Below are positions 19,370 through 44,214 of a DNA stretch of 64,000 nucleotides, piece by piece. Made by a program: the position numbers and the translations under genes. The stretch's first letter is position 1. Every line of letters begins with the position of its first letter. This DNA comes from Varunaivibrio sulfuroxidans (lineage in GTDB: Bacteria > Pseudomonadota > Alphaproteobacteria > Rhodospirillales > Magnetovibrionaceae), in NCBI RefSeq assembly GCF_029318635.1, contig NZ_CP119676.1:2183001-2247000 (forward strand). The letters are read 5' to 3'. The notes below the pieces were generated by a model. The model did not search any database and was not told where the DNA came from. It saw only the letters and a list, made by a program, of their open reading frames with translations.

Positions 19370-20697
<1,328 letters not shown>

Positions 20698-20701
<4 letters not shown>

Positions 20702-23066: not shown

Positions 23067-23227
23067 GGCTCGTTTTCCTTTCGATGTTTCCATTTCGTAA
23101 CACCCCTGGCGTCTTTTTTCGCCGCGGTTTCGAAAGCGTAACGCGATCGCGCCCCGGCCCCTGTGTGGATTGGATATGAATGTAATTTTTATGTTTGTTT
23201 TCAAACGGATAAATATTTTTTGCCGAG

Positions 23228-23242
23228 TGGCATGAAAGATGC
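23228..23242 (+). promoter_or_regulatory. Sigma-54 (-24/-12) promoter of the molybdoenzyme operon
   Basis: TGGCATGAAAGATGC fits the consensus TGGCACG-N4-TTGC with exact spacing and intact GG and GC. It lies in the 320-bp divergent gap 23067-23386, about 145 bp before the iron-sulfur subunit gene, and points toward it. An AT-rich stretch (about 23179-23221) with the inverted repeat GTTTG-TTTT-CAAAC (23193-23206) lies just upstream. A sigma-54 activator is encoded in the divergent operon. Nothing else was recognised in this gap. Confidence 0.75.
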
Positions 23243-23386
23243 GGTGTGGGAAATGGAAGCTTAACACCATTGCGCGGCGATGGCCCTCGATTTGTCGGGG
23301 GCGCGGGTCGCTTCCGGTTTGTGTCCGGGGCCGCTTAAACACTTAAGTCTTTGGACGGCGCGCGTCAATGACGGGGGAAAAAACCC

Positions 23387-24145: not shown

Positions 24146-24147
24146 TC

Positions 24148-25095: not shown

Positions 25096-25106
25096 AGGAA
25101 GAAACC

Positions 25107-27635: not shown

Positions 27636-28330
27636 ACGCCCTTACGCATGGGATGGAGCAAGGTGGTGGCCGTGAGGCCACCGCCACTTCACCGCACGGT
27701 CCGGCGCGCCCCGCGCGGGCGTCGTTTTACGGCCTTCTCGGATCGCTGTTTCGTGACGAGGCGACGGTGGAGGTCATCACCGCCCTGCGTTCGCCGCCCT
27801 TGCGGGAGGCCCTGATCGATGCCGGAATGGTGTTGGGAGACGATTTTTTCACGGAAGATCCCAAGGCGCTCGGCGAGGATCTCGCGGTCGCCTTCTCCAC
27901 CCTTTTTTTGGTGCCGGGCACGCTGATTTCGCCGCACGAATCGGTGCAAATGCCCGGTGGCTCCGCCATGTTGCGCGGGCCGGAAACCGCCGCCGTCGAA
28001 ACCTACTACGAAGCCCTTGGTTTCGCGATCGACACGGTGACGCCGATGGAGCCCGACCACATCAGCATCGAGTTGGAATTTTTGGGCCATCTGTGCGAAC
28101 ACGAGGACAATTCCCGGATGGCGGAGGACCGGGCGGGCGTCCGCGACGCCCTTCACTTCCAGGACGATTTCCTGAACCGCCATCTCGAAAGGTGGGTGTT
28201 CGATTTTTTGGATAAGGTCGAACGACGGGCGGCGCATCGTTTCTATGACGAGCTCGCGCGCCTGACCTGTGCCTTTCTCAAGGATGAAAGAGCCAGAATA
28301 TCGGAGCAGTTAAAGGCGCCGGTTGAGTAA
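27632..28330 (+). CDS. TorD/DmsD-family molybdoenzyme maturation chaperone
   Basis: This 232-residue all-helical protein is of the TorD type, with ARASFYGLLGSLFRDEATVE near the N-terminus and the family segments FLVPGTLISPHESVQM and ISIELEFLGHLCEHE. Such cytoplasmic chaperones bind the twin-arginine signal of the catalytic subunit and help insert the molybdenum cofactor before export. The ATG at 27632 overlaps the catalytic gene's stop (ATGA), confirming pairing with that subunit. An upstream in-frame start at 27599 lies inside the previous gene and is not preferred. The position corresponds to arxD in arx loci. Confidence 0.88.
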   Translation: MNALTHGMEQGGGREATATSPHGPARPARASFYGLLGSLFRDEATVEVITALRSPPLREALIDAGMVLGDDFFTEDPKALGEDLAVAFSTLFLVPGTLISPHESVQMPGGSAMLRGPETAAVETYYEALGFAIDTVTPMEPDHISIELEFLGHLCEHEDNSRMAEDRAGVRDALHFQDDFLNRHLERWVFDFLDKVERRAAHRFYDELARLTCAFLKDERARISEQLKAPVE

Positions 28331-29478: not shown

Positions 29479-30756
29479 ATGAGCGTGAACGATATCGAGC
29501 GCATTCTAAGATATCAGGTGGAAAGCGTGGGATGTCGCGAGGCGGGATCTTGCGGCGCCCGGCGGTTGTTCGCGTTCTTGAGGGAAGAGGTGCGCGCGTG
29601 CGGTTACGTCACCGACGAGGCGGCATTCCCGTTGCGCGCCATGCACATCGACGCGCTTGAGCATCGCATCGGCTCCGAGGTCTTTTGCGCGCTGCCTTAT
29701 TTCGGCTGTCCGCCGTTTTACCCCTATCGGCAGAAGATAAAACTGGAAGCGCCGCTTGCCGCCGGGTCCACCGGGGGCGAGCCTCCGCACGGCCGCGTTC
29801 TTTTGGCGGATATCGAGGGCGGCGCGCTCGTGGAACAAATCCTTGCCCATAAAACGGCGGGGTATCGCGGCGTCATTTTCATCTCCGACCGGGATACGGA
29901 CGCGGAACTTCTTGGGCTATTTTCCCCGATCACAAGTGCGGACCTGGAGGAAATTGCGGCATTGGACGATTTTCCCGTGACCTGCGTATCGCGGCGAACG
30001 GGAGAAATGCTCCGCGCGCGCGCGCGCCGCGGGCTTTGCGTGCGCCAGGATATCGACGTCTCGGTGAGGCCGACCACAGCGCGTAATTTGTTCGTCCGTC
30101 ATGCCCATGGCGTGGGGTCGGCGGAGGCGGGAAAGCGCCCAAGGGTGCGGGTGATTTGCCATTACGACAGCGCCTTCGAGGCGCCCGATCTTCCGGGGGC
30201 GTCCGATAACGCCTCGGGGGTCGCCGTTCTTACCGCCGTTCTCAAGGACCTCCATCGACAGGGCGCGTGTCTGCCCGATGTGGAATTCGTTTATTATGAC
30301 GCCGAGGAATATCTCCTTTTCGGCGCCCTGTCCTTGTTGGTCGATTTGAACGGGGAATGCGCGCGCCGATCGTGGAACGGCTTGTCCAAGGTATTCGCGG
30401 CGCGCGATGGCGCGCAGTTGACCGTTACCGAACAGCCCGATCATATGATCGAAATCGATACCGTCGGATGTGGGCGCACGTTGCGTTATGGAACCGATAA
30501 ACCGCACGAGGTCGCCGATTTTTTAAGAACGCACGACCTTGGCGGAATGTTCGATAAAATCCAACTTTCCCGAGAAAAAGGCAACGTCGAACACGCCGCC
30601 GCCCAGGCCGGGATCGTCGGTGGCGCGACCTATCATTTTCTGACCCTGGGCGCGGGGCGACGGGCGCACACCCGAAGAGACGATTTGGTGCACATAAACC
30701 GTGACGACATGGACGCGTTCGCGTCCTTCCTAAAGGCGTTGATCATCTCAATTTGA
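29479..30756 (+). CDS. M28-family zinc aminopeptidase-like protein
   Basis: This 425-residue peptidase carries M28 metal-site segments: histidine in RVICHYDSAFEAP, aspartate in PGASDNASGVAVL, glutamates in FVYYDAEEYLLFG, and a late histidine in GAGRRAHTRRDD. A PA-like insert (residues ~95-180, with RVLLADIEGGALVEQILAHK) precedes the catalytic part. No signal peptide is seen, so it is probably cytoplasmic. It converges with the seven-gene operon at 30748-39661 and the two stop ends overlap by nine bases. A 7-bp hairpin (CCCCGCC/GGCGGGG, 29420-29438) lies in its 5' untranslated region. It may trim a leader or product peptide of that operon, which is inference. Confidence 0.8.
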   Translation: MSVNDIERILRYQVESVGCREAGSCGARRLFAFLREEVRACGYVTDEAAFPLRAMHIDALEHRIGSEVFCALPYFGCPPFYPYRQKIKLEAPLAAGSTGGEPPHGRVLLADIEGGALVEQILAHKTAGYRGVIFISDRDTDAELLGLFSPITSADLEEIAALDDFPVTCVSRRTGEMLRARARRGLCVRQDIDVSVRPTTARNLFVRHAHGVGSAEAGKRPRVRVICHYDSAFEAPDLPGASDNASGVAVLTAVLKDLHRQGACLPDVEFVYYDAEEYLLFGALSLLVDLNGECARRSWNGLSKVFAARDGAQLTVTEQPDHMIEIDTVGCGRTLRYGTDKPHEVADFLRTHDLGGMFDKIQLSREKGNVEHAAAQAGIVGGATYHFLTLGAGRRAHTRRDDLVHINRDDMDAFASFLKALIISI

Positions 30757-31560
30757 GCCTTGCAGGCGCATGTCGGGACGGTATTCGACAAGGCGGCTGA
30801 ACAGTGCGCCGGTCACTTTTTCGTCTATTTTATCGTTATAGCCATAGAAGGTGTTGCCTAGATAGTACATCGGCCCCGGTAGGGAAGGATGGTTCAGCTG
30901 GAATCCGTATGTGGCGCATTCCGTCTGGCACTTCTCCGTTTTTTCACGGATGTCATGATCTCGCGTGCATTGGGCCGTCAGGCAAGTTTTGCTGCAGGAG
31001 ATATAGAAGTAGGGATAATACAGGGAATAGGCGTTTTCGGCGGGAAGGTCGATGGGGTGCATCACGTTGTCGATTTCGAACCGGGCGATTCCCTGCGCGC
31101 GCCAGAAATCGCCGATGTAGGAAAGGTGGTTGGACGAGATTCCTTCGCGCTGGCGTTCGTTCAACTGATCGACGACATTGATATAGCGCGGGTCCCTGGG
31201 CAGTTTGTTCATCAACCGACCCAACAACAAGGTCAGGTCCCGGTAGGCCGAGGTCCCTTTTTCTCGCTGCGCGTTGATATGGCGCAAAAGACCGAGGTCG
31301 TTGATCACGACCTCGCTTTCGTTTCCGGCATGGGCGACCAGTTCGACGATATTTTCGACCTTCTGGAAATCACTCTGTTCGATGTACGGCGTGGCCAGGG
31401 TGAATTTAAGTCCGCGCGCACGGCAGTGCTCGATGGCCTGTGAAACGTCGCGTTTCGACGGGATGAGGCGGTCGCAAAACTCGGTCCCATAGTAAACGCG
31501 GTCATAACCCTCAAGGGCGTCGATCTGGGCGGGATCCGAGACGATGATGGCTTTTTCCAC
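30748..31560 (-). CDS. U32-family protein, UbiV-like
   Basis: This 270-residue protein belongs to the U32 'peptidase' superfamily. Its cysteines C29, C198, C211 and C215 give the spacing C-x12-C-x3-C near the C-terminus, the pattern I recall for the [4Fe-4S] ligands of UbiV (C39, C180, C193, C197). UbiU-UbiV form a heterodimer that hydroxylates ubiquinone precursors without oxygen. This gene is last in the operon and follows a UbiU-like gene by 12 bp, so the pair probably forms a similar complex with a different substrate. It has additional cysteines (C189, C193). Confidence 0.75.
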   Translation of the reverse strand: MEKAIIVSDPAQIDALEGYDRVYYGTEFCDRLIPSKRDVSQAIEHCRARGLKFTLATPYIEQSDFQKVENIVELVAHAGNESEVVINDLGLLRHINAQREKGTSAYRDLTLLLGRLMNKLPRDPRYINVVDQLNERQREGISSNHLSYIGDFWRAQGIARFEIDNVMHPIDLPAENAYSLYYPYFYISCSKTCLTAQCTRDHDIREKTEKCQTECATYGFQLNHPSLPGPMYYLGNTFYGYNDKIDEKVTGALFSRLVEYRPDMRLQGSN

Positions 31561-31572
31561 GGGACCGTCTCC

Positions 31573-32562
31573 TTATAAACAATAGGGGCCGTGCAGCGTG
31601 CATTTTTCACGAAAGGTTTGATGAAATTGGTCCTGGGCGAAACTCTGGTACGCGCTGGAATTGGGAAAGGTGTCGAGGCTGTCGGTGAGTCTGCGCAGAA
31701 ATGAAATCTCTTGCTGCATCATGGTGCGTTTATCGGCGCTGTTGCAGTCGCGCCCGGGTATTTTCAAATAGCGAATGTTATGATTGGCGCAATCGAACAT
31801 ATCGCAGGCGCGGCATGTCTTGGGGTTTGAACTGAAGCGCCATTTTTGTTGCATGTTTTGGCGTATGCGGGCGCTCTCGGCGGCGCTTAGGCTTTGCGCG
31901 CTAAGCACCCCGATGTCGTAGTCGATGTTGCACATGGAGAAATTCATGAAAGGCGGCGCTTCGTTGGACATGTACACGATCATATGTTCGAAGTAGCAAA
32001 ACCCATCGATGTTCAAACAGCGCGAATGGCTGGTGAAGATTTCGAATTCCATTTCCGGGTAGGCGTCCGCGATGTCGTAGGCGTCGGTCAGTTTCAATGC
32101 CCGGGGAAAGATGATCCGGTTGACCCCTAAATCCTGAAAAAACGCGGCGCTGTTGGCGTTGAAAACGGTGCCGCCGGTGCTCAGGTGGATCGGGATGTCG
32201 CGCCAGGTCCGGCGCAGGACGCGCAACAGGGCGATATCGGAAACGATCAGGTGGTCCACATCGGTGGTTTTCAACTCTTCGATCAGTCGTTCGATGACCG
32301 CCAACTGGCCTTTCGTGATATTTTGCGCGTTTAGCGTCAGGGAAAACTTTTTTCCCAGGTCATGCGCGGCGGCGACGGCGGCGTTCAGGCCGTCGAGGTT
32401 CGTCATGCTGCTCATCGGACCCCAGCGGCGCCCCGGGCTCATGAAGAATTGAAATTCATCCAACCAGTATTCCGGGATATAGCCGCAAAAAACCTCGTCG
32501 GCGCCGACGTCGATACGTTCGCTAATGGTCTCGGGGGTGCTTGCCCCGACGACGATCTTCAT
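31573..32562 (-). CDS. U32-family protein, UbiU-like
   Basis: This 329-residue protein carries the U32 signature region as EIFTSHSRCLNIDGFCYF, with C182-x6-C189. Cysteines at 211 and 250 complete a pattern in which the last gap (x38) equals that of UbiU (C169, C176, C193, C232, as recalled). A further cluster, CRACDMFDC (250-258), is unusual. It should bind an iron-sulfur cluster and act with the UbiV-like protein encoded next to it, probably as an O2-independent hydroxylase. It overlaps the upstream SPASM protein gene by four bases. Membership of ubiquinone synthesis is unlikely given the radical SAM and carbamoyltransferase neighbours. Confidence 0.78.
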   Translation of the reverse strand: MKIVVGASTPETISERIDVGADEVFCGYIPEYWLDEFQFFMSPGRRWGPMSSMTNLDGLNAAVAAAHDLGKKFSLTLNAQNITKGQLAVIERLIEELKTTDVDHLIVSDIALLRVLRRTWRDIPIHLSTGGTVFNANSAAFFQDLGVNRIIFPRALKLTDAYDIADAYPEMEFEIFTSHSRCLNIDGFCYFEHMIVYMSNEAPPFMNFSMCNIDYDIGVLSAQSLSAAESARIRQNMQQKWRFSSNPKTCRACDMFDCANHNIRYLKIPGRDCNSADKRTMMQQEISFLRRLTDSLDTFPNSSAYQSFAQDQFHQTFREKCTLHGPYCL

Positions 32563-33755
32563 GGCTGTTCTCCCAACCGTTCCGGGACCTTATCCATTAC
32601 ACAAGAATCATGATATAAAGTAAACAAACATTCGTGGTATGATTGTATTTCATTGCGCAGGGACGATGTTAGAATTTTCCGATTGGTCTCTTGGAGTTTG
32701 AAATTCAGCTGCCCGATTTGTTCGTAAACCGCCCGAATGGCGGTGCAATCCGGAGGGGCGGCGTTCAACCGGCAGCCGGCGGCGCAGAAATAGCGGCACC
32801 AACACGCCAGACATTTATCCTTGTGGATGACCGAACCACGGAAATACGCTTTCCTGGTGGCGTCATGCAGCCCCTCCGACAGCGTTCCAATGCGTGCGGG
32901 GTCCTTTTTGCAGCCATGCACCCCGCCGTGCGCGAGGTCGCAATAAACGCTATTGATGCCCGCCGCGCAGTTGAAGAAGCGTTTCCGGTTCTGTGCGAAT
33001 TGCAACACGGCGCGCAGCAGGCGCTTGAACCTGCGCGGGCTGTGCGCCGCCGCATCCATGAAGGCGGGTAAGGCGGCGGCCAAGCGTTCGCCGAGGTCGT
33101 GGGGGATATCGAGCGGCGCATCCACCGTGCCGATGTGCAGCCAGGTCAAGAAACGCTCAAGCAGGTCATAAGGCGCGGCCTCATCGTCGCGCGCCTGGGC
33201 GGTGTCGTTTTGCGCTATGATATGCGTCTCCTGTTGGCGAAGCTCTTCTTGCGTCGAAGAATAGATAAATTGCTTTTCGAGCCGGGCGGACAACAGGTCC
33301 AGGGCGTCGCGGACCTCCGCCTGCCCCGCCGCGTCGCCGCCCAACAGGGTAAAGTGAACGGCGTTCGCCTTATAAGCGTGCGTGAGAATGATATCGTGGA
33401 GAAACTGCCGTGCATCGTCGCTCAACGCGTACACACCGTCGCAGTCCAGGACGAAATTAAAGATGATGTCGATGTTTTGGAAGTCCTTGATGTAATATTT
33501 TTCGTCGTATTTATAGTTGAAGCAATTTTTTTCTTTTTGAATCCGTGCCAGATATTCGGTGAAAATTTGGGCGTCTGTTTCGTCGTATTCTCCAGATTTG
33601 ATAAGGGCATCGGGTGTTTGCGTTTCGCACCGTTTCAGGAAAACGGCCTCGTCGTAGGGTAGGGCGACGATCATGCCGTGGAAGGGCAAATACAAATAGC
33701 CAAACTCGTCGGTTAGGAAAATCCGGCCCTTATGCGTGAAATGAGGAAGGGGCAT
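32559..33755 (-). CDS. Radical-SAM-like protein lacking the SAM-cluster motif, with intact SPASM domain
   Basis: In this 398-residue protein residues ~10-75 resemble a PqqD-like fold (GYLYLPFHGMIVALPYDEAV). The central part resembles a radical SAM barrel, but the CxxxCxxC motif is missing (FNFVLDCDGVYALSDD stands in its place) and the GGEP motif is reduced to LLGGDAAG. The C-terminal SPASM motif is complete: C263-x13-G-x4-C282, then C315-x2-C318-x5-C324-x3-C328, then C337. It should bind auxiliary iron-sulfur clusters but cannot cleave SAM in the usual way. A partner or scaffold for the true radical SAM enzyme encoded just upstream (33757-34827) is the likeliest role. Confidence 0.72.
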   Translation of the reverse strand: MPLPHFTHKGRIFLTDEFGYLYLPFHGMIVALPYDEAVFLKRCETQTPDALIKSGEYDETDAQIFTEYLARIQKEKNCFNYKYDEKYYIKDFQNIDIIFNFVLDCDGVYALSDDARQFLHDIILTHAYKANAVHFTLLGGDAAGQAEVRDALDLLSARLEKQFIYSSTQEELRQQETHIIAQNDTAQARDDEAAPYDLLERFLTWLHIGTVDAPLDIPHDLGERLAAALPAFMDAAAHSPRRFKRLLRAVLQFAQNRKRFFNCAAGINSVYCDLAHGGVHGCKKDPARIGTLSEGLHDATRKAYFRGSVIHKDKCLACWCRYFCAAGCRLNAAPPDCTAIRAVYEQIGQLNFKLQETNRKILTSSLRNEIQSYHECLFTLYHDSCVMDKVPERLGEQP

Positions 33756-33756
33756 T

Positions 33757-34827
33757 TTAGGTCTCGCCTCCCAACTGTTTTACGGCCTCGTGGATATACA
33801 GGCATTCGGGGACATGGCCGTCGTCGTCGGCCTCGAACATGCACGGCGTGCAATATGGTCCGAATTTGCAGGTCGTGCACAGAGTGTCGTCCGCCCGCCC
33901 GCCATCCTTGGCGGCGATGAAATCGCCGCGAAAGCCCGAGGTCAAAAACCCATCCAGGGAATTTTCGCCAAGGGGCGCGGACCCGGTCGTTTGCGCCGCC
34001 GCGCCCATCTCGAACTTGCAGCGCATGCACGGATAAACCGCGCCGTCGGCCTGGATGTATATGCCGTGGCTGCCCGCGCCGCAGTGAAAGGCGGTCGGGT
34101 ACTTGGTGGCGCACACGGCGTTGATGTAGGCGTATCCCATCGGCGTCGCCTCGAAGCTAACAGGCAAATCGTGCGCCTTGGCATGGCCGACGAGGTCGAT
34201 CAGGAAGGCATATTTTTCTTCCCAGGTCACGGCGCCGATGCGGTCCAGATTTTCCAGGGCGCTATCGACGGCGATGATGTTGGTGATCCCGAAGGCGTCA
34301 ACGCCCAGGGATTTGGCGAGGTCCACGAAGTCGCGCGCCCGCGTCAACACGGCGTGCGACAAGATGGCGTTCAGGGTGATGCGAACCGGGGCGTCGCTTT
34401 TGCGCACCAAGGCCGTCAGGCGGCGAATATTGTCGATCAGGGGACGGTATGTATTTTTGCCGCGAATGAATTCGTGGCTTTCCCGGTCGGGGCCATCCAG
34501 GCTGATGATGATGACGTCCGGCAGATGGGCGCGGTTTTCCGCGAACCAGCGCGGCGTCAGGAACAGGCCGTTCGTGTTGAGCGTGACGGTGTCGAAGGCC
34601 TTCCTGGACAGCGCGAGAATGTCCGAAAAATTGTTCCGCAGCAGCGGTTCCCCGCCGACGAATTGGACGTGCGTCACGTCGTTGCGGCGCAGGTCGTCGA
34701 TGATTTTCTCGATGCCGTCGTCGGACAATTCGGGCGTCGTGCTTTTATAATGCGCCCCGCCGACGCAACAGTGTTTGCAGTTGAGATTGCAGCGCGACGT
34801 GATGTCCCATTTGGCGGTTATCGACAT
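33757..34827 (-). CDS. Radical SAM/SPASM peptide- or small-molecule-modifying enzyme
   Basis: This 356-residue enzyme has C13-x3-C17-x2-C20 (SRCNLNCKHC) for the SAM-cleaving cluster and the GGEP motif (QFVGGEPLL). A SPASM domain follows: C-x12-G-x4-C in CGAGSHGIYIQADGAVYPC, then CTTCKFGPYCTPC and a last PEC. The second block is C-x2-C-x5-C-x2-C, one residue shorter than the canonical SPASM spacing. Enzymes of this type make thioether or C-C links, or mature quinone cofactors, in ribosomal peptides. The gene abuts the B12-radical SAM gene with no gap. Confidence 0.88.
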   Translation of the reverse strand: MSITAKWDITSRCNLNCKHCCVGGAHYKSTTPELSDDGIEKIIDDLRRNDVTHVQFVGGEPLLRNNFSDILALSRKAFDTVTLNTNGLFLTPRWFAENRAHLPDVIIISLDGPDRESHEFIRGKNTYRPLIDNIRRLTALVRKSDAPVRITLNAILSHAVLTRARDFVDLAKSLGVDAFGITNIIAVDSALENLDRIGAVTWEEKYAFLIDLVGHAKAHDLPVSFEATPMGYAYINAVCATKYPTAFHCGAGSHGIYIQADGAVYPCMRCKFEMGAAAQTTGSAPLGENSLDGFLTSGFRGDFIAAKDGGRADDTLCTTCKFGPYCTPCMFEADDDGHVPECLYIHEAVKQLGGET

Positions 34828-36435
34828 TTACCGCCCCCCCAACGACATGCGAAGGCCGATATAGGCGTCGAGGATATCGTCTTCGTTCATGTGTTGCGTG
34901 CGCACATGCGGGATGTTGATGTTGAATTCACGCCACGCCAAGGGCAACACCTCCAGGCCATAGGCCGCCGGGTCGTTTGCATAATCGGTTCCCGGAAAGA
35001 TGTTGAGCATCGAAAATTGCACCTGGCCGGGGTTGCTTTCGGTCACGAAACGACCGATGCGTTCGATGCTTTCACGGGTCTCGCCGGGAAGGCCGATGAT
35101 ATAGCTCTGGCGTATTTTCAGGCCGGCCTGCTTCGCCCATCTCATGACCTCTTCGACTTGGGAAAAATCGACCCGCTTGTTGGCCTTGTCGAGGACCGAC
35201 TGCTCGACTGATTCGACGCCGAAAAACACGCCTTCGCATCCGGCGTCGCGCATGATGTGCAACAGGGCTTCATCGACCATGTCGATCCTGGTGTTGCACA
35301 TCCATTGAATATTCAACCGCTTCTCGATCAACAGTTCGCAAATGGCGACGATCCGCTTGCGGTTGAAGGTGAAGGCGTCGTCGAGAAAATTGAATTTGGT
35401 GGTCTCATAGGCATCGATCAGGCGTTCGATCATGGCGACGACCCTATGCGGTGCGTAGTAATTGACGCGGCGACCGTGGAATTTGAAGGTGCTGCAATAG
35501 GCGCAATTGAACGGGCATCCGGTGCTCGTGATCATCGGGATATAGCCGTTGGTGTCATAGCGGGATAAATCGATTTTGTGATAGGCGGGGAATGCGAGGG
35601 CGTCGAAATCGATCCGTTCGGTCTGTGGCGTCGGTGGGCGAATAGCCTCGCCGACTTTGTAGGCGAGGCCCGCGACGTCTTCGACCCGCCCCTTTTTGGC
35701 GAACAGCGCCGCGCATAGCGAGACCATCAAATTTTCCCCCATGCCGACGCACACGAAATCGGCGTCCGCGTCGCGCAGCAGGTCCCGGTAGGTCATCGTG
35801 GCATGATTGCCACCCATGATTAGGGGCGTGTCAGGCAGGATGTCCTTGATGTTGCGGGCGATGCGCAGGGCCTCGGCCGAGGTTGGCGTCATGTTCAAGG
35901 TGATCCCGATCAAATCCCACGGCGTCCCGTTCTTCTCGATGTACGCGGTGATGTCGGCCGGTCGGGCGTCTTCCAGGGCCATGTCGTAGATATCGACGTC
36001 ATGGCCCGCTTTGTGCAATTGCCCCGCGATATGAAGCAGGCCCAGCGGCGGCGTCAGCTTTTGAAACGTGTAGCGCGATCTGGGAAACGGCAGGCCGGGG
36101 TTGATCAGCAATATCCTGGCGTGCTTCGTTTCGCGGTAGGTCCTGAATTTCATGACCTTTAGGTCGGTGAGGGTCTCTAGGGCCGCGCGGACATCTTCCG
36201 GGCTGTCGGCATGATCCCGTCGCGCTCGGTTCCGCCGCGCATGGGCGCGGTAAATATCGTCCAAGGAATGCACCCCGTCGCACAGGTCTAAAAGCTCGAC
36301 CAGAGTGGGTTGGATCGCAATTATTTGGTCGCTGACCGCGTCAAAAATAACGTTCCGCCCGCCGGCGTCGCGAACGCCGACATACGCGCAAAACGAAGGA
36401 TAAATTTCGCGATCGGTGTAGGTGTTCGAGTTCAA
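34828..36435 (-). CDS. PqqD-like domain fused to a B12-binding radical SAM enzyme
   Basis: This is a 535-residue fusion. Residues ~12-100 look like a PqqD/RiPP recognition element (NVIFDAVSDQIIAIQPTLVE, then LLDLCDGVHSLDDIYRAHAR). Residues ~105-245 are a cobalamin-binding Rossmann domain (ILLINPGLPFPRSRYTFQKL, PLGLLHIAGQLHKAGHDVDI). The radical SAM barrel has C307-x3-C311-x2-C314 (TGCPFNCAYC). B12-radical SAM enzymes typically methylate unactivated carbons or rearrange carbon skeletons. The fused PqqD-like domain suggests that a leader peptide or peptide carrier delivers the substrate. It lies between the methyltransferase and SPASM genes with essentially no spacers. Confidence 0.85.
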   Translation of the reverse strand: MNSNTYTDREIYPSFCAYVGVRDAGGRNVIFDAVSDQIIAIQPTLVELLDLCDGVHSLDDIYRAHARRNRARRDHADSPEDVRAALETLTDLKVMKFRTYRETKHARILLINPGLPFPRSRYTFQKLTPPLGLLHIAGQLHKAGHDVDIYDMALEDARPADITAYIEKNGTPWDLIGITLNMTPTSAEALRIARNIKDILPDTPLIMGGNHATMTYRDLLRDADADFVCVGMGENLMVSLCAALFAKKGRVEDVAGLAYKVGEAIRPPTPQTERIDFDALAFPAYHKIDLSRYDTNGYIPMITSTGCPFNCAYCSTFKFHGRRVNYYAPHRVVAMIERLIDAYETTKFNFLDDAFTFNRKRIVAICELLIEKRLNIQWMCNTRIDMVDEALLHIMRDAGCEGVFFGVESVEQSVLDKANKRVDFSQVEEVMRWAKQAGLKIRQSYIIGLPGETRESIERIGRFVTESNPGQVQFSMLNIFPGTDYANDPAAYGLEVLPLAWREFNINIPHVRTQHMNEDDILDAYIGLRMSLGGR

Positions 36436-36436
36436 T

Positions 36437-37759
36437 TTACGGACCTTCCATTCGCGCCAGCCCGTTGGAAACCAACCAATGAGCGAAGTAATCGATCCGG
36501 CGGATCAAGCCGTCGGCGGCTTCCTCGTTTTGGGGGAATTCGGCCTTTAGCGCGGTCTTGATGTCCCCTACGGTGCGCGCGCCGTCGCACAGGTCGATGA
36601 ACTTTCCGTGCAGGATGGGCATGTCCATGCCCTGTGGAAGGTGCGCGTCGATGTGGCCTTTGTCTTGGCTGTTAAGGACGCTGTCGTCGGATAAAAAGAA
36701 CCGCGAAGTGACGCCGAACGATCCGCTGGCGTCGTTATCGATCGTGATGACGGCGTCGTAAAGATGGGTGTGATGGGCCTGTCGGTAGTCGTCTTTCCAG
36801 CGCGCGATTTCCTGGGCGCCGATGTTTGGCGCGTACGCCGCCATGAGATCGACGTGCCGCGCCGCCGCCATGCGTCCCGTCAGATAGAGGCTCACGCCAA
36901 GTCCTCGGGTGCGCGCGTAGCCGGCCAATTCCTCGGTGAAGGGAACGCCACGATCGTCCCCCAGCAGTTGCAAAATGCTCAGCAGTCGCCCGCCCCGGGA
37001 TAAATATCGCGGGCAGTCCTCTAAGACCCGGCGCATGATCGCGAGGCCGTCGTCGCCCCCCCGCCCGGCGCGCGGATAGTCGGTCAAGAAGTCCGGCACC
37101 GGCTGGCAGGGCGGCTTGGTGACGATCAGTTCGTACGCGCCGTCAACGGCGTCGAAAAGATCGCTGCGCACGCAGCGCACATTGTGCGCGACGCCGTTGA
37201 GCCGAGCGTTGAGGTTGGTTAGGGCGACGGCGGCGGGGTCGATGTCCGCGCTTGTGACGCGATTGTTTTGGGCCGCCATGGCGATGGCGTGAATGCCGCT
37301 GCCGCAACATAGATCGAGAACGTCGCACCCCTGTCGATTGGGGAGGTAACCGCCCAGCAAATAGGAATCCGCGCCAAGATAGACATCGCCGCGTCCCGTC
37401 GTCCGGGAGGGGTAGAAGGGGGGAATATCGACAACGAGGTAAAGGGCGCGATAGGGGATGATGATTTTTAGCGGGACCAGCGTGCCGCCTCGCCGCGTAA
37501 GGACGCCATCGGCGTCGAGCCGGGCCACGAGGACGTCATCAAGGAAAGGCGCGAGGGTGTCTTCCGCGATGGGGACGCCCAGATAAAACAAAGCGAGGAG
37601 CGTCTTGATCGCGCCTTCCATCAGGACGACGTTGTTCTTCGCAAGGTCGTAGTTTGGCCACGGCGACAGGTCCGCCGAGGGGTTCACCATGTGACAGCCG
37701 ATCCGATAGCCGTGCCGGTCCAAAATTTCGCGCAATCGTTCCATTTGTCCACCCATCAT
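36437..37759 (-). CDS. Class I methyltransferase with C-terminal PqqD-like domain
   Basis: In this 440-residue protein the central domain (residues ~140-290) is a PrmC/RsmC-type methyltransferase: DVLDLCCGSGIHAIAMA (motif I) and LIVTKPPCQPVP at the usual NPPY position, so motif IV is KPPC. The N-terminal ~135 residues are a separate domain. Residues ~355-438 resemble PqqD (LHGKFIDLCDGARTVGDIKT, ending YFAHWLVSNGLARME), the same LCDG-type element found in the B12-radical SAM protein. The altered motif IV argues against standard Gln or adenine N-methylation. The ATG at 37744 is an alternative start. Confidence 0.75.
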   Translation of the reverse strand: MMGGQMERLREILDRHGYRIGCHMVNPSADLSPWPNYDLAKNNVVLMEGAIKTLLALFYLGVPIAEDTLAPFLDDVLVARLDADGVLTRRGGTLVPLKIIIPYRALYLVVDIPPFYPSRTTGRGDVYLGADSYLLGGYLPNRQGCDVLDLCCGSGIHAIAMAAQNNRVTSADIDPAAVALTNLNARLNGVAHNVRCVRSDLFDAVDGAYELIVTKPPCQPVPDFLTDYPRAGRGGDDGLAIMRRVLEDCPRYLSRGGRLLSILQLLGDDRGVPFTEELAGYARTRGLGVSLYLTGRMAAARHVDLMAAYAPNIGAQEIARWKDDYRQAHHTHLYDAVITIDNDASGSFGVTSRFFLSDDSVLNSQDKGHIDAHLPQGMDMPILHGKFIDLCDGARTVGDIKTALKAEFPQNEEAADGLIRRIDYFAHWLVSNGLARMEGP

Positions 37760-37768
37760 TTTGCGGCG

Positions 37769-39661
37769 CTACAGTTCGCGGTGGAAGGTCGTGTTCTCCA
37801 TGCCGTCGCCCTGAGGAGAAAATTTCAATTTTACGAACGTCGCCCAGTAGTTGGTGTAATCGCAGACCTTATTCAGGGTTTCTTTGGTCGAGGCCGCCTT
37901 TGGGGCGAAGGGCCGTGCGGCGCGATATGGGTTTTTCGGCGGCAGGACGTCGCCGGCGTTCTTGGTCACGATGTGATTGCCAATGACCAGGGCGTCGAGA
38001 TTGGTTCCCAGGAAACAGCGGATGGCGTCCTCGGGAGTGTGCACCAAAGGCTCGCCCTTGACGTTGAACGATGTGTTGAGCAGGACCGGGACCCCGGTGT
38101 GTTTCTCGACTTCCTTGTGGAGCCGCCAAAACAACGGGTCGATGTCCTCGCTCAGGGTTTGCACCCGGGCGGTGTTATCGACATGGGTGACGGCGGGAAG
38201 ACAGGCTCCCTCGCGGACTTCGCAAACCATCAACATATAAGGCGAGGGGACCGGCAGGGTGAAATAGGCGGCGCAGTCCGGTTCGGGAACGGAGGCGGCG
38301 AACGGGCGGAAGGCTTCGCGGTGTTTGACTTCGGCGTTGACGCGATCGTTCATGCCCGGATGGCGGGCATTGGCGAGGATGCTGCGATGGCCCAGGGCGC
38401 GCGGGCCGAATTCCATCGCGCCTTGAAACCAGCCGACGATCAAATTGTCGCCCAACAGCCGCGCCGCCTTGCCGGCGGGATCGTTGGCGGTGGTATGGGC
38501 GAGGTCATATGCCTCCAGGGCGCGGATGATGGCGCGATCGTCGAATTCAGCGCCCCAAAAGACGTGGCGGATCGCGGGGGGGCGCGCCGCGCCGTGGACC
38601 TGGCAGGACACGAACAGGGCGCTGCCCAGTGCGGTTCCCGAATCCCCGGCGGCCGGTTGCACGAAAAGATTGTCGCAGTAGCCGTCCGCGATCAATTTTC
38701 CATTGATGACGCTGTTCAGCGCCACGCCGCCGGCCAGACAGACATCGCGGGTTCGATGTTCCGCGCCCAGGTCGGCGACTCGGGTGCAGATGAAGCGTTC
38801 CACCGCGCCTTGCAGGCTGGCGGCGATGTTTTCGTGGCGCTTCGTGATCGGAGCGTCTTGGGGTCGGGGTGGGCCGATAATCGCCAAGGCCCGGTCGGTG
38901 AAGGCTCGGTCGATGCGCCAGGCCCCTTCGGGCAAACGGATATAGGCGTCATTGAGTTCGAAAAAGTTGCTCTTCGCGTTCGCGTGTCGGGATCGCGGAG
39001 GGGCGACGATCAGGGCGTCGAACAATTCGCGAAATTCCTCCTCTCCATACGAGGCCAGCCCCATGGTCTTGCCCTCGGCGAAGTCGCCCAGCCCGAGGTG
39101 GGCGGTGACGACGCTGTACAGCGTGCCCAACGAGTGCGGATGGCGATTGCCCATCACGAAGGCTATATCCTTGTCTTGCGCCCGCCAGACGGCCGTCGAA
39201 TAGCGGTCGCCGGCGCCATCGATCGTTAAAATCAGGGCATCCGCGAAAGGGCTGCAATAATAGCTGCTCGCGGCATGGGCCATGTGATGATCGACCGCGA
39301 TGACATTGCCCGTGTAGGCGAGGCGTTTGCGTAGGTGATGGGTGACGCCATCCTCGACGCTGCGCCGCCAATGGCGCATGGCGCGGAAATATTCAAAATT
39401 ATGAGGAAACTTCGCCCCGGCGGCGCGTTCGACGATTTCGCGTTGGATGATATCCGGGCAAAAATTGAACGCGACGCAATCGACATCGTCCAGCGTGATA
39501 TTTTGACGTTCGAGGACGAAGGCAATGCTGTTTTCGGGAAAAGCGCCGCTGTGTTTGACGCGGTCCAGGCGTTCTTCCTCGATGGCCCAAAGCACGTTCC
39601 CGTCTTCAACCAATGCCGCCGCGCAATCGTGCATGCCAAACGAAAGACCAAGAACGTACAT
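37769..39661 (-). CDS. NodU/CmcH-family carbamoyltransferase
   Basis: This 630-residue enzyme has the N-terminal Kae1-like ATPase domain (YVLGLSFGMHDCAAALVEDG, the metal-site histidines in VDHHMAHAASSYY, LTIDGAGDRYSTAVW). The C-terminal domain of the family carries GWFQGAMEFGPRALGHRSIL and VPVLLNTSFNVKGEPLVHTP. It transfers a carbamoyl group from carbamoyl phosphate, through carbamoyl-adenylate, to a hydroxyl of a natural product. The ATG at 39661 (AGGGGTG upstream) is chosen; the open frame upstream runs through an 18-bp-period repeat and lacks family similarity. It is the first gene of the operon. Confidence 0.88.
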   Translation of the reverse strand: MYVLGLSFGMHDCAAALVEDGNVLWAIEEERLDRVKHSGAFPENSIAFVLERQNITLDDVDCVAFNFCPDIIQREIVERAAGAKFPHNFEYFRAMRHWRRSVEDGVTHHLRKRLAYTGNVIAVDHHMAHAASSYYCSPFADALILTIDGAGDRYSTAVWRAQDKDIAFVMGNRHPHSLGTLYSVVTAHLGLGDFAEGKTMGLASYGEEEFRELFDALIVAPPRSRHANAKSNFFELNDAYIRLPEGAWRIDRAFTDRALAIIGPPRPQDAPITKRHENIAASLQGAVERFICTRVADLGAEHRTRDVCLAGGVALNSVINGKLIADGYCDNLFVQPAAGDSGTALGSALFVSCQVHGAARPPAIRHVFWGAEFDDRAIIRALEAYDLAHTTANDPAGKAARLLGDNLIVGWFQGAMEFGPRALGHRSILANARHPGMNDRVNAEVKHREAFRPFAASVPEPDCAAYFTLPVPSPYMLMVCEVREGACLPAVTHVDNTARVQTLSEDIDPLFWRLHKEVEKHTGVPVLLNTSFNVKGEPLVHTPEDAIRCFLGTNLDALVIGNHIVTKNAGDVLPPKNPYRAARPFAPKAASTKETLNKVCDYTNYWATFVKLKFSPQGDGMENTTFHREL

Positions 39662-39737
39662 AGACAAATCACCCCTTGGAGCCGCGCGATCCCGTCGCTT
39701 CGGGTATCGACCTCGCGTGGCGTGCATCAACAAACCC

Positions 39738-39770
39738 GCGCCGTGCGTATGGCCTGCGCCGTGCGTATGG
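39738..39770. repeat. 15-bp direct repeat with 18-bp period
   Basis: GCGCCGTGCGTATGG occurs at 39738-39752 and 39756-39770. It lies in the presumed leader/promoter region of the carbamoyltransferase operon. Confidence 0.9.
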
Positions 39771-39790
39771 ATGAACAGGCGAAGCCGCAC

Positions 39791-39832
39791 CAAGGAAGCC
39801 CGTGGCGATTTTTCCGCAACGGTGCTTCCTTG
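39791..39832. terminator. Hairpin downstream of the ankyrin gene
   Basis: CAAGGAAGC (39791-39799) pairs with GCTTCCTTG (39824-39832), and an inner CCGT/ACGG pairing lengthens the stem. It lies between the ankyrin gene stop and the carbamoyltransferase start on the minus strand and lacks a strong U-tract. It probably insulates the operon. Confidence 0.5.
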
Positions 39833-39848
39833 CGGGATGCATTTCCCG

Positions 39849-40349
39849 TTATTCGAGTGCCTTGACGGCGGCAGTGAACTCTTTCAGGCGCTGGGTGGCG
39901 ATATCCACGGCGCGCATCTTTTGGCGGTTGCGCACGCTTGTGTCCGCCCCGGCCTTAAGGAGCATTTTGATGATCGCGGTGTTGCCGTTGAGGGCGGCGA
40001 TGGTCAGGGCCGTGTCGCCGTTTTTGTTGCGCGCGTTGATGTCGGCGCCGGCCTCGATCAGCATTTGCGCGATTTCATTGTGGCCTTGCATGGCGGCGAT
40101 GGTTAGGCCGGTGTCGCGGTGCTTTGTCTTGTAATCCGCGACATTCGCCTTGTTGATCTGACGTTTGAGTTTGGCGACGTTGCCTTCGTAAACGTTGGTG
40201 AAGAAATCGGCCGGGCCGACCTGAAACATTTCGTCGGGATTGAAGGCCTCGGCGCACCAGTCGCTTCCGGAATATTGCTCGGACTGAACAACTTCTATTT
40301 TCAAGAGATCATGGGTCGGGTTTGTGGCGGCGTCTGTCTTATCCATCAT
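39849..40349 (-). CDS. Ankyrin-repeat protein
   Basis: This 166-residue protein has about three ankyrin repeats in its C-terminal half (TGLTIAAMQGHNEIAQMLIE, then GDTALTIAALNGNTAIIKML) and an N-terminal part of ~70 residues without clear similarity. No signal peptide is visible, so it is probably cytoplasmic and involved in protein contacts. The ATG at 40349 has GGGGGATCCC upstream; a TTG at 40361 is less likely. It sits upstream of the carbamoyltransferase operon on the same strand but a hairpin separates them, so a shared role is not supported. Confidence 0.85.
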   Translation of the reverse strand: MMDKTDAATNPTHDLLKIEVVQSEQYSGSDWCAEAFNPDEMFQVGPADFFTNVYEGNVAKLKRQINKANVADYKTKHRDTGLTIAAMQGHNEIAQMLIEAGADINARNKNGDTALTIAALNGNTAIIKMLLKAGADTSVRNRQKMRAVDIATQRLKEFTAAVKALE

Positions 40350-40525
40350 GGGATCCCCCAAGGTGTTTCAAAAACGTATAACCACGGTGAGGCTACTATA
40401 TACCAGAATGTATTTCAACCTAAGGTCGTGGTTGCGTGTGCTAAATTTAACGCCAACGACGATGTCGCGCGCGGGATGTTGCGCGGGGGCGTCGCCTTGG
40501 GGCGCATTTTGATGCGGTGGCCATT

Positions 40526-40567
40526 ATCTTTTTGGAATACGCCAGGATCTTTTTGGAATACGCCGGG
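40526..40567. repeat. 21-bp tandem duplication, 20/21 identical
   Basis: Two directly adjacent copies at 40526-40546 and 40547-40567 share the core TCTTTTTGGAATACGCC. They differ at one position (CAGG versus CGGG at the 3' end). Confidence 0.95.
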
Positions 40568-40654
40568 CGCATCGGATGAATAGTTTTGTATGCCGTTTTC
40601 GGGGTTAAGGCGCGCGCACCGGGCTTAAGCGGTCTGCGCGTACCGCCAAACCGC

Positions 40655-40693
40655 GCCGCCATGCCATGCCGCCCTGCCATGCCGCCATGCCAT
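40655..40693. repeat. Three 13-bp tandem units
   Basis: GCCGCCATGCCAT (40655-40667), GCCGCCCTGCCAT (40668-40680) and GCCGCCATGCCAT (40681-40693) are directly adjacent; the middle copy differs by one base. Confidence 0.95.
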
Positions 40694-40941
40694 GATTGCG
40701 TCAACCAGAGGATTTCGGGCGCATTGCGTGCATGTCTTGCCGGCCAAAAACGTCCGCGTATGGTCATCGGCGGTGGCCTCGAACCGTGCTAAAAACGGAA
40801 AACACGTTGGCCAAGATTGTCGATCGACTTGTCTTTTTACTTCATATGACGATATAAGTGCGCTCGGAGTGCGGGTTTTTTTGTCGCGTTCCCCTAAGAT
40901 CCTCACCCTTCCGGGCATTTTCCTCACATGATGAATTGATA

Positions 40942-42744
40942 ATGAGCACCAAAAACGCTGGCAACCGCCCTCTTGCTGATTTTACAACGGGCACGCGGGT
41001 CCTTGTGATCGCCGCCATCGCCGTCGTCGTCGGCGTGGTGAGTTTGTTCGTCGGCATCGCTTTTTTGCAAATGATTCGGCTGTTCACGAATATCGCCTAT
41101 TTCTGGCGGTTCTCCTTTGAAGAGGTCAGTATTGCGGATTCGCACCTCGGCTTGATCGCGGTGCTTATTCCGGTCGTCGGCGCCCTTATCGTCGGTGTAA
41201 TGGCCCGTTTCGGCAGTGAAAAAATTCGCGGTCACGGCATTCCCGAGGCGATCGAGGCGATCTTGCTCGGTCGTTCGCGCCTGGACGCAAAGGTCGCGGT
41301 GCTCAAACCGTTGTCATCGGCAATCGTGATCGGCACCGGTGGGCCGTTTGGCGCCGAGGGGCCGATCATCATGACCGGTGGGGCAATCGGATCGTTGATC
41401 GCCCAGGCGCTTCCCGTTAGCGATAGCGAACGCAAAACGTTGCTTGTGGCCGGCGCCGCCGCGGGCATGACGACCGTGTTCGGAACGCCGATCGCGGCCG
41501 TCATGATGGCTGTCGAACTTTTGCTTTTCGAGTGGACGCCCCGCAGCTTCATTCCCGTCGCCGTCGCCGCGGTCATCGCCGAGGTCGGGCGCACGGCGTT
41601 GCATATGCCCTCGCCGCTTTTCCCGTTTGAAGGAACGATGGCGATCAGCTTCCTCGGGCTCGCCAGCTGGATGGCCGTCGGCCTTGTCGCCGGGGCTTTG
41701 TCATGGGTGTTGACGCAGCTTGTTTACGGGGCCGAGGACGCTTTCTTGAAATTGCCGATCCATTGGATGTGGTGGCCGATGATCGGCGGCGTCGTGATCG
41801 GCCTCGGCGGTTTGATCGAGCCCCACGCGCTGGGCGTCGGGTACGATAACATCACGCGCATGTTGAGCGGCCAGACCATCGCCATGACCGCGTTCATTCT
41901 TCTTGCGGTCAAGGCGATTATCTGGGCGGTGGCCTTGGGGTCCGGCACGTCGGGCGGCGTGCTCGCGCCGTTGTTGATCATGGGGGGCGCGATGGGCGCC
42001 GCGATCAGTGGGTTCATGCCCGAGGCGAGCCCCGGTTTTTGGGCGTTGTTGGCGATGGCGGCGACGATGGGCGGCACCATGCGTGTGCCGCTGACGGCGA
42101 CGTTCTTCGCCGCCGAGTTGACCGGCAACACGCATATTTTGGTGCCGTTGTTCGCCGCGAGCGCGACGGCGCATGCGGTCACCGTGCTTTTGATGAGGCG
42201 TTCGATCCTGACCGAGAAAATCGCCCGGCGCGGTCACCATATTGTTCGCGAGTATCGCGTCGATCCTTTCGCCCTGACGCATGTTAGCGAGGTCATGACC
42301 CACGATGTCGAGACCGTCCCCGCGTCGATGACGCTTAGCGCCGCCACCGTTTTCCTGACCACCTTGGAGCGGACCCACCCTAGCTATCCCGTCGTCGATG
42401 AGGGCGGGCATGTCCTGGGTATCGCCGATCCGCCCGCGGTGCTGCATTGGCGGCGCGCGGGGAAATATCGCAATGCGACGCTCGGTGAGCTGCTTGAAGG
42501 AAGCCCGCTTACGACGGCCTATCCGGACGAATACCTGGAAGCCATTGTCGATCGACTGATGGAGGAAAATGTTGGGCACTTGCCCGTGATATCGCGTGAG
42601 GATAAGCGTCTTGTCGGATACGTCAGTTGGAAGGATTTGATGCGCGTACGCTACAAGCTTCAAACCGAGGAAAGCGATCGGGCCAAGTTCTTTTTCCACG
42701 GTAAGGGACACGATGTAAAACCGGGCCGTCGAAAATTGGATTAG
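40942..42744 (+). CDS. ClC-family chloride channel/antiporter with tandem CBS domains
   Basis: This 600-residue membrane protein has the ClC selectivity segments GTGGPFGAEGPIIMTGG, whose glutamate matches the gating/proton glutamate of exchangers, and GSGTSGGVLAPLLIMGG. About 10-12 hydrophobic helices are followed by two C-terminal CBS domains (VSEVMTHDVETVPASMTLSA, then a second ending VISREDKRLVGYVSWKDLM) that usually bind adenine nucleotides. It should move chloride, possibly in exchange for protons. The frame is open from 40858, but the ATG at 40942 fits the family N-terminus. It is transcribed alone. Confidence 0.92.
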   Translation: MSTKNAGNRPLADFTTGTRVLVIAAIAVVVGVVSLFVGIAFLQMIRLFTNIAYFWRFSFEEVSIADSHLGLIAVLIPVVGALIVGVMARFGSEKIRGHGIPEAIEAILLGRSRLDAKVAVLKPLSSAIVIGTGGPFGAEGPIIMTGGAIGSLIAQALPVSDSERKTLLVAGAAAGMTTVFGTPIAAVMMAVELLLFEWTPRSFIPVAVAAVIAEVGRTALHMPSPLFPFEGTMAISFLGLASWMAVGLVAGALSWVLTQLVYGAEDAFLKLPIHWMWWPMIGGVVIGLGGLIEPHALGVGYDNITRMLSGQTIAMTAFILLAVKAIIWAVALGSGTSGGVLAPLLIMGGAMGAAISGFMPEASPGFWALLAMAATMGGTMRVPLTATFFAAELTGNTHILVPLFAASATAHAVTVLLMRRSILTEKIARRGHHIVREYRVDPFALTHVSEVMTHDVETVPASMTLSAATVFLTTLERTHPSYPVVDEGGHVLGIADPPAVLHWRRAGKYRNATLGELLEGSPLTTAYPDEYLEAIVDRLMEENVGHLPVISREDKRLVGYVSWKDLMRVRYKLQTEESDRAKFFFHGKGHDVKPGRRKLD

Positions 42745-43047: not shown

Positions 43048-44214
43048 ATGAGCACAGGCTTCCCACGTCAAGTCGTCACCCCGCACCGTAAAATTCCACT
43101 CTCCGTTCCCGAGGGCATGACGCCGGTCGAGTTCTTTAACAGCGCCGCCAACTTGCGCAATCTGGCCGATGACAACGGGCTGTTGCGCACGCCGGAAGAT
43201 TTCCTTTTATACCGCAAGGCGATCGGTCACAGCGTCGAATTCGACACCTCCGTTATTTTCGATACCTCGCAGCGGATATTGGATCCCCTGGGCCGACCGG
43301 TGCGCCGCGATCAGCTGTCCGAACGCGAAGGCAAGGTGTTCAGTCGGATGAGCCACACCATCATCCAGTACATGGCCGAGGAATATCCCGATCCGGGCGA
43401 AACGCTGATCATGTGCGGCGAGGCCAGCTTGGACGCCACATGGCCCCTGTGCAAGCCGGGCGTCCCCACTATTCGCATGATCCACAATCATTTCATCGCC
43501 TTTCCCCAGGCCGATTTGATGAACGCGCCGGCCGCCGACCCGGAAAATCCCAACCTTACCGATGGCGGCCACAACAGCCTGTTTTCTTATAACCTGAGCG
43601 ATGTCTACCATGAGTTCCTGGACGTCCTGGATTTGCAGGTCCTGAGCCCAATGGCCCCAAAGACGGGTGCATTGGCCGCTACCGGCTACCCTCAGGGACT
43701 GCCGAGTTGGGTGGTGCGCGGCGGCGTGGACGGTTTGGCGAAGGCTCGTTTTTGGCGCGAATACGATGATGTTCTGAAAGGCTTTCTCGATTTCTACCGG
43801 GCCTTTTTTACTCTGGTGGCCAAACCCGAGGGCGCCATCGCCGCCGATCTTTATTTCCCGGACCAAGTGGAGAACGTTCTTTTGTTCAATAACCACTTCC
43901 ACGCGGTCGCCAAGGAAATTCGCGATCGCATCAAGGACGATCCGCAGTTCGCCAACGAAATTCGTTGGCGCCCGGCCTACAAGCAGATTATCTATCGCGA
44001 CGACGAAGGGCGGTTTATCGTGACCATTAGCCAAAATTCCATCGGCAACGCCATCACCGAATTGCTGGGCATCGTGGTGTCGAGGATCGCGGACGAGGAG
44101 GCTTACGCCCGCGCCGAACCGGCCCTGATGGAAAAGTTGTTTAAGGTGCGTGACCGGCTTGTCACAGTCGGCGTCGGCGAAGCGATAAACAGCGGCGGCT
44201 GGGGCGCGCTTTGA
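43048..44214 (+). CDS. Uncharacterised protein with two His-rich motifs
   Basis: This 388-residue soluble protein belongs to no family I recognise. It has normal composition and good coding character. Two histidine motifs stand out: IRMIHNHFIAFP near residue 150 and FNNHFHAVAKEI near residue 288. There is also a conserved-looking CGEASLDATWPLC stretch. Such motifs could bind a metal or phosphate, as in HIT-like nucleotidyltransferase folds, but no full signature is seen. There is no signal peptide. It is followed after 74 bp by a flippase gene on the same strand, so a link to surface polysaccharide or cell-envelope work is possible. Confidence 0.7.
   Translation: MSTGFPRQVVTPHRKIPLSVPEGMTPVEFFNSAANLRNLADDNGLLRTPEDFLLYRKAIGHSVEFDTSVIFDTSQRILDPLGRPVRRDQLSEREGKVFSRMSHTIIQYMAEEYPDPGETLIMCGEASLDATWPLCKPGVPTIRMIHNHFIAFPQADLMNAPAADPENPNLTDGGHNSLFSYNLSDVYHEFLDVLDLQVLSPMAPKTGALAATGYPQGLPSWVVRGGVDGLAKARFWREYDDVLKGFLDFYRAFFTLVAKPEGAIAADLYFPDQVENVLLFNNHFHAVAKEIRDRIKDDPQFANEIRWRPAYKQIIYRDDEGRFIVTISQNSIGNAITELLGIVVSRIADEEAYARAEPALMEKLFKVRDRLVTVGVGEAINSGGWGAL

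Follow-up and report, generated by a model that had tools for sequence, protein, structure and literature searches.

The window analysed here is a 64,000-nucleotide stretch of the genome of Varunaivibrio sulfuroxidans (contig NZ_CP119676.1, positions 2,183,001 to 2,247,000), a genome of 3.07 Mb in one contig. It contains an operon of seven open reading frames (ORFs) on the minus strand, which encode, in order, a carbamoyltransferase (C7), a methyltransferase (M6), a B12-binding radical S-adenosylmethionine (SAM) protein (B5), a second radical SAM protein (S4), a SPASM-type protein (P3), and two proteins resembling the U32 oxidases (U and V), with intergenic gaps of 9, 1, 0, 1, -4, and 12 bp. 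These seven contiguous genes had been reported in a preliminary description of the window, and ORF analysis bore out their coordinates and gaps. The extent given there for the operon, 30748-39661, is too narrow: it leaves out a gene for an ankyrin-repeat protein directly upstream of C7 and, at the other end, a gene for an M28 family peptidase, each of which has a counterpart in the sister cluster described below. The full set comprises nine genes in approximately 11 kb (29479-40349; Table 1).

The ankyrin-repeat protein carries at its N-terminus a tag, NPxHDLLxIEVxxSxxYxGSDWCAExF, that is shared with a Nif11-domain protein of the only other genome in which we found the cluster, a Rhodobacteraceae metagenome-assembled genome (MAG). 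The sister cluster lies on contig PIVL01000030.1 (22.8 kb), which is covered entirely by two of our loci, L022 and L119; L022 was found with B5 in a short-peptide-pattern scan of GTDB genome contigs. The two copies of the tag are identical at 19 of 27 residues (E 4e-14 in direct comparison), including the whole of GSDWCAE, and Asn occurs in the shared tag only at position 1. When the ankyrin tag was searched against 105 loci, the L022 Nif11 protein matched at E 2.6e-10 and the next match had an E-value of 2. Because 11 of the 19 identical residues are encoded by different codons, the tag is conserved at the protein level; these synonymous differences, together with 20,000 shuffles of which none scored as high, rule out chance or contamination as its source. 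Each genome has one convincing copy. Direct comparison of the two proteins gave no other significant match beyond the tag stretch, outside which the window protein has ankyrin repeats (all its Pfam matches are ankyrin-type; NHLP was not sought separately) and the L022 protein two Nif11 stretches. The L022 protein exceeds the NCBIfam cut-off for precursors of ribosomally synthesized and post-translationally modified peptides (RiPPs; 58.5 vs 32.3 bits), and no Nif11 match was found in the whole genome of the window at E up to 1. In a single-sequence model of the ankyrin protein (mean predicted local distance difference test score, pLDDT, 67), residues 9-49 have pLDDT <50 and include one 5-residue helix, and ankyrin-like helices run from residue 50 on; the tail ahead of the repeats is probably disordered, which a model of that mean pLDDT can only suggest.

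Six of the nine window genes have relatives on the MAG contig. In addition to the tag, these are C7 (47% identity over 568 residues, L119:1578-3455), M6 (37% over 434, L022:8050-9492), B5 (46% over 525, residues 9-533 and hence including the N-terminal domain, L022:5259-6953), S4 (41% over 350, L022:6842-8047), and the M28 peptidase (32% over 422, L022). Co-occurrence in other genomes, to which the preliminary description had looked as a check on the operon, thus holds in one other genome for C7, M6, B5, S4, M28, and the tag and fails for P3 and the U32 pair. Where the window has the U32 pair, the sister cluster has two cupin/JmjC hydroxylases with Nif11-like N-termini (29.4 and 24.1 bits, under the cut-off of 32.3), which suggests the attractive possibility that a related peptide is hydroxylated with O2 in one cluster and without it in the other. 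The MAG has two U32 genes at E 0.01 or better, on another contig, and their products share 63% identity with the UbiU and 43% with the UbiV of the window genome; a search of the MAG with P3 at E up to 1 gave no match, although the MAG may be incomplete.

The sister cluster also contains genes for a glycosyltransferase, an O-methyltransferase, a sulfotransferase, a short-chain dehydrogenase, a GMC oxidoreductase, and a DegT-type aminotransferase, as well as a second B12-radical SAM protein and two more radical SAM proteins. These extra genes lie at 217-1794, 4026-5072, 9489-10568, 10575-11309, and 11316-12698 of L022 and at 700-1578, 3483-4409, 4424-6058, and 6064-7317 of L119.

Table 1. The nine genes of the cluster and the hairpin between the first two, in window coordinates
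Feature	Position	Strand	Basis
Ankyrin-repeat protein, proposed precursor (substrate)	40349-39849	-	ORF and sequence; ankyrin by Pfam; tag NPTHDLLKIEVVQSEQYSGSDWCAEAF at N-terminus
Gap between precursor gene and C7 gene, strong RNA hairpin	39662-39848	-	Folding
C7, O-carbamoyltransferase, related to NodU and TobZ	39661-37769	-	Pfam PF02543, PF16861
M6, methyltransferase with PqqD-like C-terminus	37759-36437	-	Pfam MTS, weak PqqD
B5, PqqD-like, B12-binding, and radical SAM	36435-34828	-	Pfam; CPFNCAYC, residues 307-314
S4, radical SAM with SPASM-like C-terminus	34827-33757	-	Pfam; CNLNCKHC, residues 13-20
P3, SPASM-only, without CxxxCxxC	33755-32559	-	NCBIfam matches, cysteine pattern
U, U32 oxidase-like, UbiU/TrhP type	32562-31573	-	PF01136; cysteines C182, C189, C211, C250
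V, second, diverged U32-like protein, UbiV-like	31560-30748	-	Gene order, weak profile evidence
M28 family peptidase, proposed maturation peptidase	29479-30756	+	PF04389; convergent with operon, 9-bp overlap

Pfam and NCBIfam uphold the earlier domain assignments for the carbamoyltransferase, the methyltransferase, the B12-radical SAM protein, the radical SAM domain of S4, and U. Scores for the SPASM domain of S4 and for the PqqD-like regions fall below the cut-offs, and V can be recognized only weakly as a U32 protein. C7 has N- and C-terminal carbamoyltransferase domains (E 1.4e-54 and 1.6e-65, Pfam), and its relatives in the PDB are decarbamoylnovobiocin carbamoyltransferase, GdmN, and TobZ. 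M6 has an MTS methyltransferase domain (E 4e-14, Pfam) and a PqqD-like C-terminus that scores 15.1 bits in the whole protein and 17.1 alone, against a Pfam cut-off of 23.4. Its nearest solved structures by PDB profile match are 7rc2-7rc6, labelled only "Methyltransferase family protein"; the best of them, 7rc2 (E 6e-19, over the methyltransferase part), we take to be AerE, the enzyme that N-methylates asparagine side chains in the proteusin aeronamide. In B5 the B12-binding and radical SAM domains both exceed the Pfam cut-off and the PqqD-like N-terminus, at 16.5 bits alone, is under it. B5 has its best NCBIfam matches in BchE (189.7 bits) and ApyD (171.9 bits), neither of which reaches its cut-off, with HpnJ/HpnR among further matches; given these two best profiles, ring closure and methylation are both possible.

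Each of the four end domains taken in isolation (from B5, M6, and their L022 relatives) has PqqD as its top Pfam match, in every case under the cut-off, and an alignment of seven PqqD-like ends has no invariant column. The tested ends of the MAG sulfotransferase and glycosyltransferase gave no PqqD match. S4 has a radical SAM domain above the Pfam cut-off and a SPASM domain below it (18.8 vs 21.5 bits). The motif CxxxCxxC is present in S4 and B5 and absent from P3, in agreement with the original view of P3 as a SPASM protein without a SAM cluster; P3 has no Pfam match, and its NCBIfam SPASM match is below the cut-off (22.9 bits vs 27). Nine of the ten NCBIfam matches of P3 lie within residues 236-351, the best being to a nif11-peptide radical SAM maturase (E 9e-12, residues 245-332), and the tenth, over residues 59-192 (E 0.089), appears fortuitous. 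A structure model of P3 (mean pLDDT 43) was too poor and was not used. P3 may be an auxiliary-cluster partner of S4, perhaps also lending it a recognition domain.

U exceeds the cut-off for PF01136 (99.8 bits), and its NCBIfam matches include TrhP (78.3 bits) and UbiU (71.9 bits; equivalog cut-off 440). The window genome has a separate, true UbiU-UbiV pair that exceeds the NCBIfam cut-offs (518.5 vs 440 and 360.8 vs 275 bits); U shares 25% identity with this UbiU over approximately 200 residues (E 1e-11), and V adjoins U as UbiV follows UbiU there. The cysteine spacing of U, C-x6-C-x21-C-x38-C, is unlike the typical U32 Fe-S motif CX6CX15CX3C (PMC11574389). No Pfam family matched V, and its only NCBIfam match was a weak one to UbiU (13.4 bits, E 0.03), UbiV not being among the matches. 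Against a two-sequence UbiV profile (hhalign), V was the best of 15 proteins, at E 0.0033 with a probability of only 9.8%, and in a global alignment its residues C29, C193, C211, and C215 pair with UbiV cysteines. Comparing the alignments of U and V as profiles gives no independent evidence, because these alignments include the genome's UbiU and UbiV. The assignment of V as a UbiV-like U32 protein is accordingly a weak one. U32 oxidases and their pairs hydroxylate without O2; prephenate has been reported to supply the oxygen in the case of ubiquinone and has been suggested to do so for other U32 oxidases (PMC10470549, PMC11574389). The biochemically characterized U32 oxidases named in the second of these papers have ubiquinone precursors and RNA as substrates (PMC11574389).

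We consider it probable that these genes encode a RiPP-type pathway with the ankyrin protein as precursor, its N-terminal tag as substrate, and its folded part as an exchangeable carrier. This reading starts from observed gene order, homologies, a shared tag, and co-occurrence. Two marks of a RiPP pathway are a precursor gene beside tailoring enzymes and a peptidase gene; here the tag-bearing ankyrin gene lies upstream of the enzyme genes, and an M28 gene, whose product would act in maturation, is present in both clusters. The unusual modification set and the probable leader- or carrier-bound substrate of the preliminary description are supported at the level of sequence, and the chemistry that it predicted we give in conditional form.

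From the two clusters we infer the tag as substrate, each reaction, the order of reactions, the oxygen donor, and the product. DLLxIEV would be the short recognition (docking) stretch of the tag and YxGSDWCAExF its modified core, with the ankyrin fold serving as the carrier, a role that would fall to the Nif11 domains in the sister cluster. The PqqD-like domains of B5 and M6 would dock the precursor, and P3 may do likewise for S4. S4 and P3 could then introduce a radical crosslink or an oxidation near Trp-Cys, B5 could carry out C-methylation or ring closure, and M6 could methylate N or O. U and V would perform an O2-independent hydroxylation, with prephenate the likely oxygen donor as in other U32 oxidases; C7 would O-carbamoylate Ser or the new hydroxyl, and the M28 peptidase would release or trim the product.

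The best-placed alternative is that the tag is a docking handle only and that the modified residues lie elsewhere in the ankyrin protein or on another peptide. By its sequence DLLxIEV resembles a strand that a RiPP recognition element (RRE) could bind, and the ankyrin and Nif11 parts differ, which would leave room for a variable core elsewhere; yet nothing outside the neighbourhood of the tag matches significantly between the two proteins, while four operon enzymes are conserved, and the exact conservation of GSDWCAE seems to go beyond the needs of docking. We regard this alternative as unlikely. Little probability attaches to a second one, in-place maturation of a protein cofactor, whereby the ankyrin protein would keep its modified tail and act as an enzyme or electron carrier. 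The cysteine tryptophylquinone proteins are a precedent for a modified protein retained in such a role, and this reading would fit with the adjacent Trp and Cys of the tag, with TIGR03906, a quinohemoprotein amine dehydrogenase maturation protein to which P3 is weakly matched (E 1.6e-4), and with the anaerobic respiration genes nearby, but the carbamoyltransferase in both clusters and the sulfotransferase, glycosyltransferase, O-methyltransferase, and DegT aminotransferase genes of the MAG fit a secondary metabolite better, and the M28 peptidase is conserved. That a small molecule or lipid (e.g., a quinone or a hopanoid-like compound) is the substrate of the enzymes, with the ankyrin and M28 genes as chance neighbours, as the top match of B5 to BchE, its HpnJ/HpnR matches, and the resemblance of U to quinone and tRNA hydroxylases might suggest, is very improbable, given that both clusters combine the enzymes with the tag and an M28 peptidase gene and that the PqqD-like domains point, weakly, to a peptide.

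Several observations weigh against the RiPP-type pathway as we propose it. A Nif11 leader is usually N-terminal and the core C-terminal; the tag sits where such a leader normally would and could thus be recognition rather than core. U, V, and P3 have no relatives on the MAG contig at E 1e-3, so that their tie to the tag is through the operon alone, and V does not match the genome's true UbiV significantly by BLASTP (E 0.28). No PqqD match was found in the N-terminus of P3, and the PqqD-like matches of B5 and M6 are themselves below the cut-off. No promoter-like site was found in 39600-40860, and the nine genes include no peptide exporter. Searches by enzyme, tag, and pattern found no third cluster in the sampled genomes, leaving only two.

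Beyond the RiPP-type pathway itself, we tentatively raise the possibility of a new RiPP class, in which a peptide tail is borne on an interchangeable folded carrier (ankyrin or Nif11) and a diverged ubiquinone-type U32 pair has been recruited for O2-free peptide hydroxylation, replacing the JmjC oxygenases of the sister cluster. We know of no U32 oxidase that acts on a peptide, and none was found in peptide biosynthesis in a search of open-access literature, mostly without full texts; if the proposal is true, this would be the first known to us. In the same literature no ankyrin-repeat RiPP precursor was found, judged largely by title, nor Nif11 with JmjC in a RiPP context, and Nif11 with carbamoyltransferase yielded only work on acetogen genomes. 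With a defined peptide as its substrate, a U32 pair would offer an accessible model for the poorly understood O2-independent hydroxylation. The tag makes the substrate of the pathway, and hence its product, directly testable, and it can be used in searches for RiPP precursors that would not be recognized as such by their appearance.

The cluster resembles several known systems in part. The pyrroloquinoline quinone (PQQ) pathway employs PqqD, a radical SAM-SPASM enzyme, and a peptidase, and the window has in common with PqqA-PqqD-PqqE and the SPASM maturases a PqqD-like domain, a radical SAM-SPASM enzyme, and a peptidase; it differs in that its PqqD-like parts are fused to the B12-radical SAM protein and the methyltransferase, and in having more tailoring enzymes. 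Likeness to UbiU-UbiV and TrhP lies in the U32 domain of U, the order of U then V, and the paired cysteines, whereas the low identity of U, the lack of a significant BLASTP match for V, and the separate true pair kept by the genome set the window proteins apart. B5 resembles ApyD, a RiPP B12-radical SAM enzyme, but falls far under the 750-bit equivalog cut-off, and its PqqD-like N-terminus lies outside the matched stretch (125-488). With Nif11-type precursors and proteusins (polytheonamide, aeronamide) the two clusters share a Nif11 precursor, in the sister cluster, and a B12-radical SAM protein together with a methyltransferase nearest to 7rc2; in contrast, the window precursor has ankyrin repeats and an N-terminal tag, and the window has a carbamoyltransferase and a U32 pair, with no LanM-type match among the nine genes. 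The chemistry of AerE and PoyE is asparagine N-methylation in proteusins (PMC11285071). RREs fused to carbamoyltransferases and glycosyltransferases are described in another study (PMC12710340), whose main text mentions neither ankyrin nor B12; the window fusions are instead to a methyltransferase and a B12-radical SAM protein, and C7 has no Pfam match to PqqD at E up to 0.1.

Searches for further clusters covered overlapping samples of genomes, not full collections. P3 matched two of 299 genomes of the phylum, its own and G185 (SPASM part only). Among 100 relatives, B5 matched 12 genomes at E 1e-40 or better, its own included; the other matches run from residue 78 on, with 26-33% identity, and none was in the 17 other genomes of the window genome's family among these relatives. 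The scan of GTDB contigs covered 137 stretches picked by short peptide patterns and so has limited reach; among the best 80 of 122 relatives of B5 in it, only the L022 match starts before residue 78. Against plasmids, B5 gave 203 records (all 20 matches listed start at residue 84 or later), and M6 gave 69, none covering 80% of M6. In the family of the MAG, the only one of 394 genomes that B5 matched was the MAG; in the class it matched two of 385, its own and G667. The latter was rejected as a third cluster after comparison of 26 proteins, since the matches in its 19.9 kb were confined to the B12-radical SAM queries and a methyltransferase piece of 43 residues. With the tag as query, nine of the 385 genomes of the class gave a match at E 0.1 or better and, besides its own, only G668 one below 1e-3 (4.4e-4); G668 was rejected as a carrier of the tag, since by eye no such gene is among the four longer ORFs in its stretch of 5.5 kb. 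The tag had no match in plasmids, nor did P3, B5, or M6 in viral contigs. Comparison of the nine window proteins with the 105 loci by tblastn gave, beyond B5 itself, L022, and the window loci, only scattered matches: S4 in many loci, P3 in L006 and L007 (SPASM part), a 51-residue piece of M6 in L075, and a carbamoyltransferase of 29% identity in L081.

M6 matched two of 297 genomes of the order, its own and G943 (over 191 positions). The methyltransferase ORF matched by the M6 profile in G943 (L117:1306-2493) lies beside radical SAM-like and LanM-dehydratase-like ORFs, and this locus, with its neighbours judged by eye, is perhaps a separate proteusin-like RiPP cluster.

The ORF of C7 has an ATG at 39661, but its reading frame is open up to a TTG at 39793. 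That of the ankyrin protein extends to a TTG at 40361, the likely start being the ATG at 40349, which has a GGGGGA stretch ahead of it. Between the two genes, the interval 39662-39851 folds into a hairpin with a minimum free energy of -84.6 kcal/mol (z -2.70; 3 of 200 shuffles were equally or more stable), which could limit read-through from the precursor gene into the enzyme genes and so yield more precursor than enzyme.

The next gene past the ankyrin gene (40858-42744) encodes, as judged by eye, a ClC-type channel. Further on, a 388-residue ORF (43048-44214) without a Pfam match at 1e-5 adjoins a polysaccharide flippase-like gene. On the other side, the region 19370-28330 contains a two-component system with a sigma-54 activator and then, beside the cluster, an anaerobic respiration locus with genes for a 4Fe-4S dicluster protein, NrfD, a molybdopterin oxidoreductase, and a nitrate-reductase-delta-type chaperone. 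Such a locus in the neighbourhood fits anoxic life.

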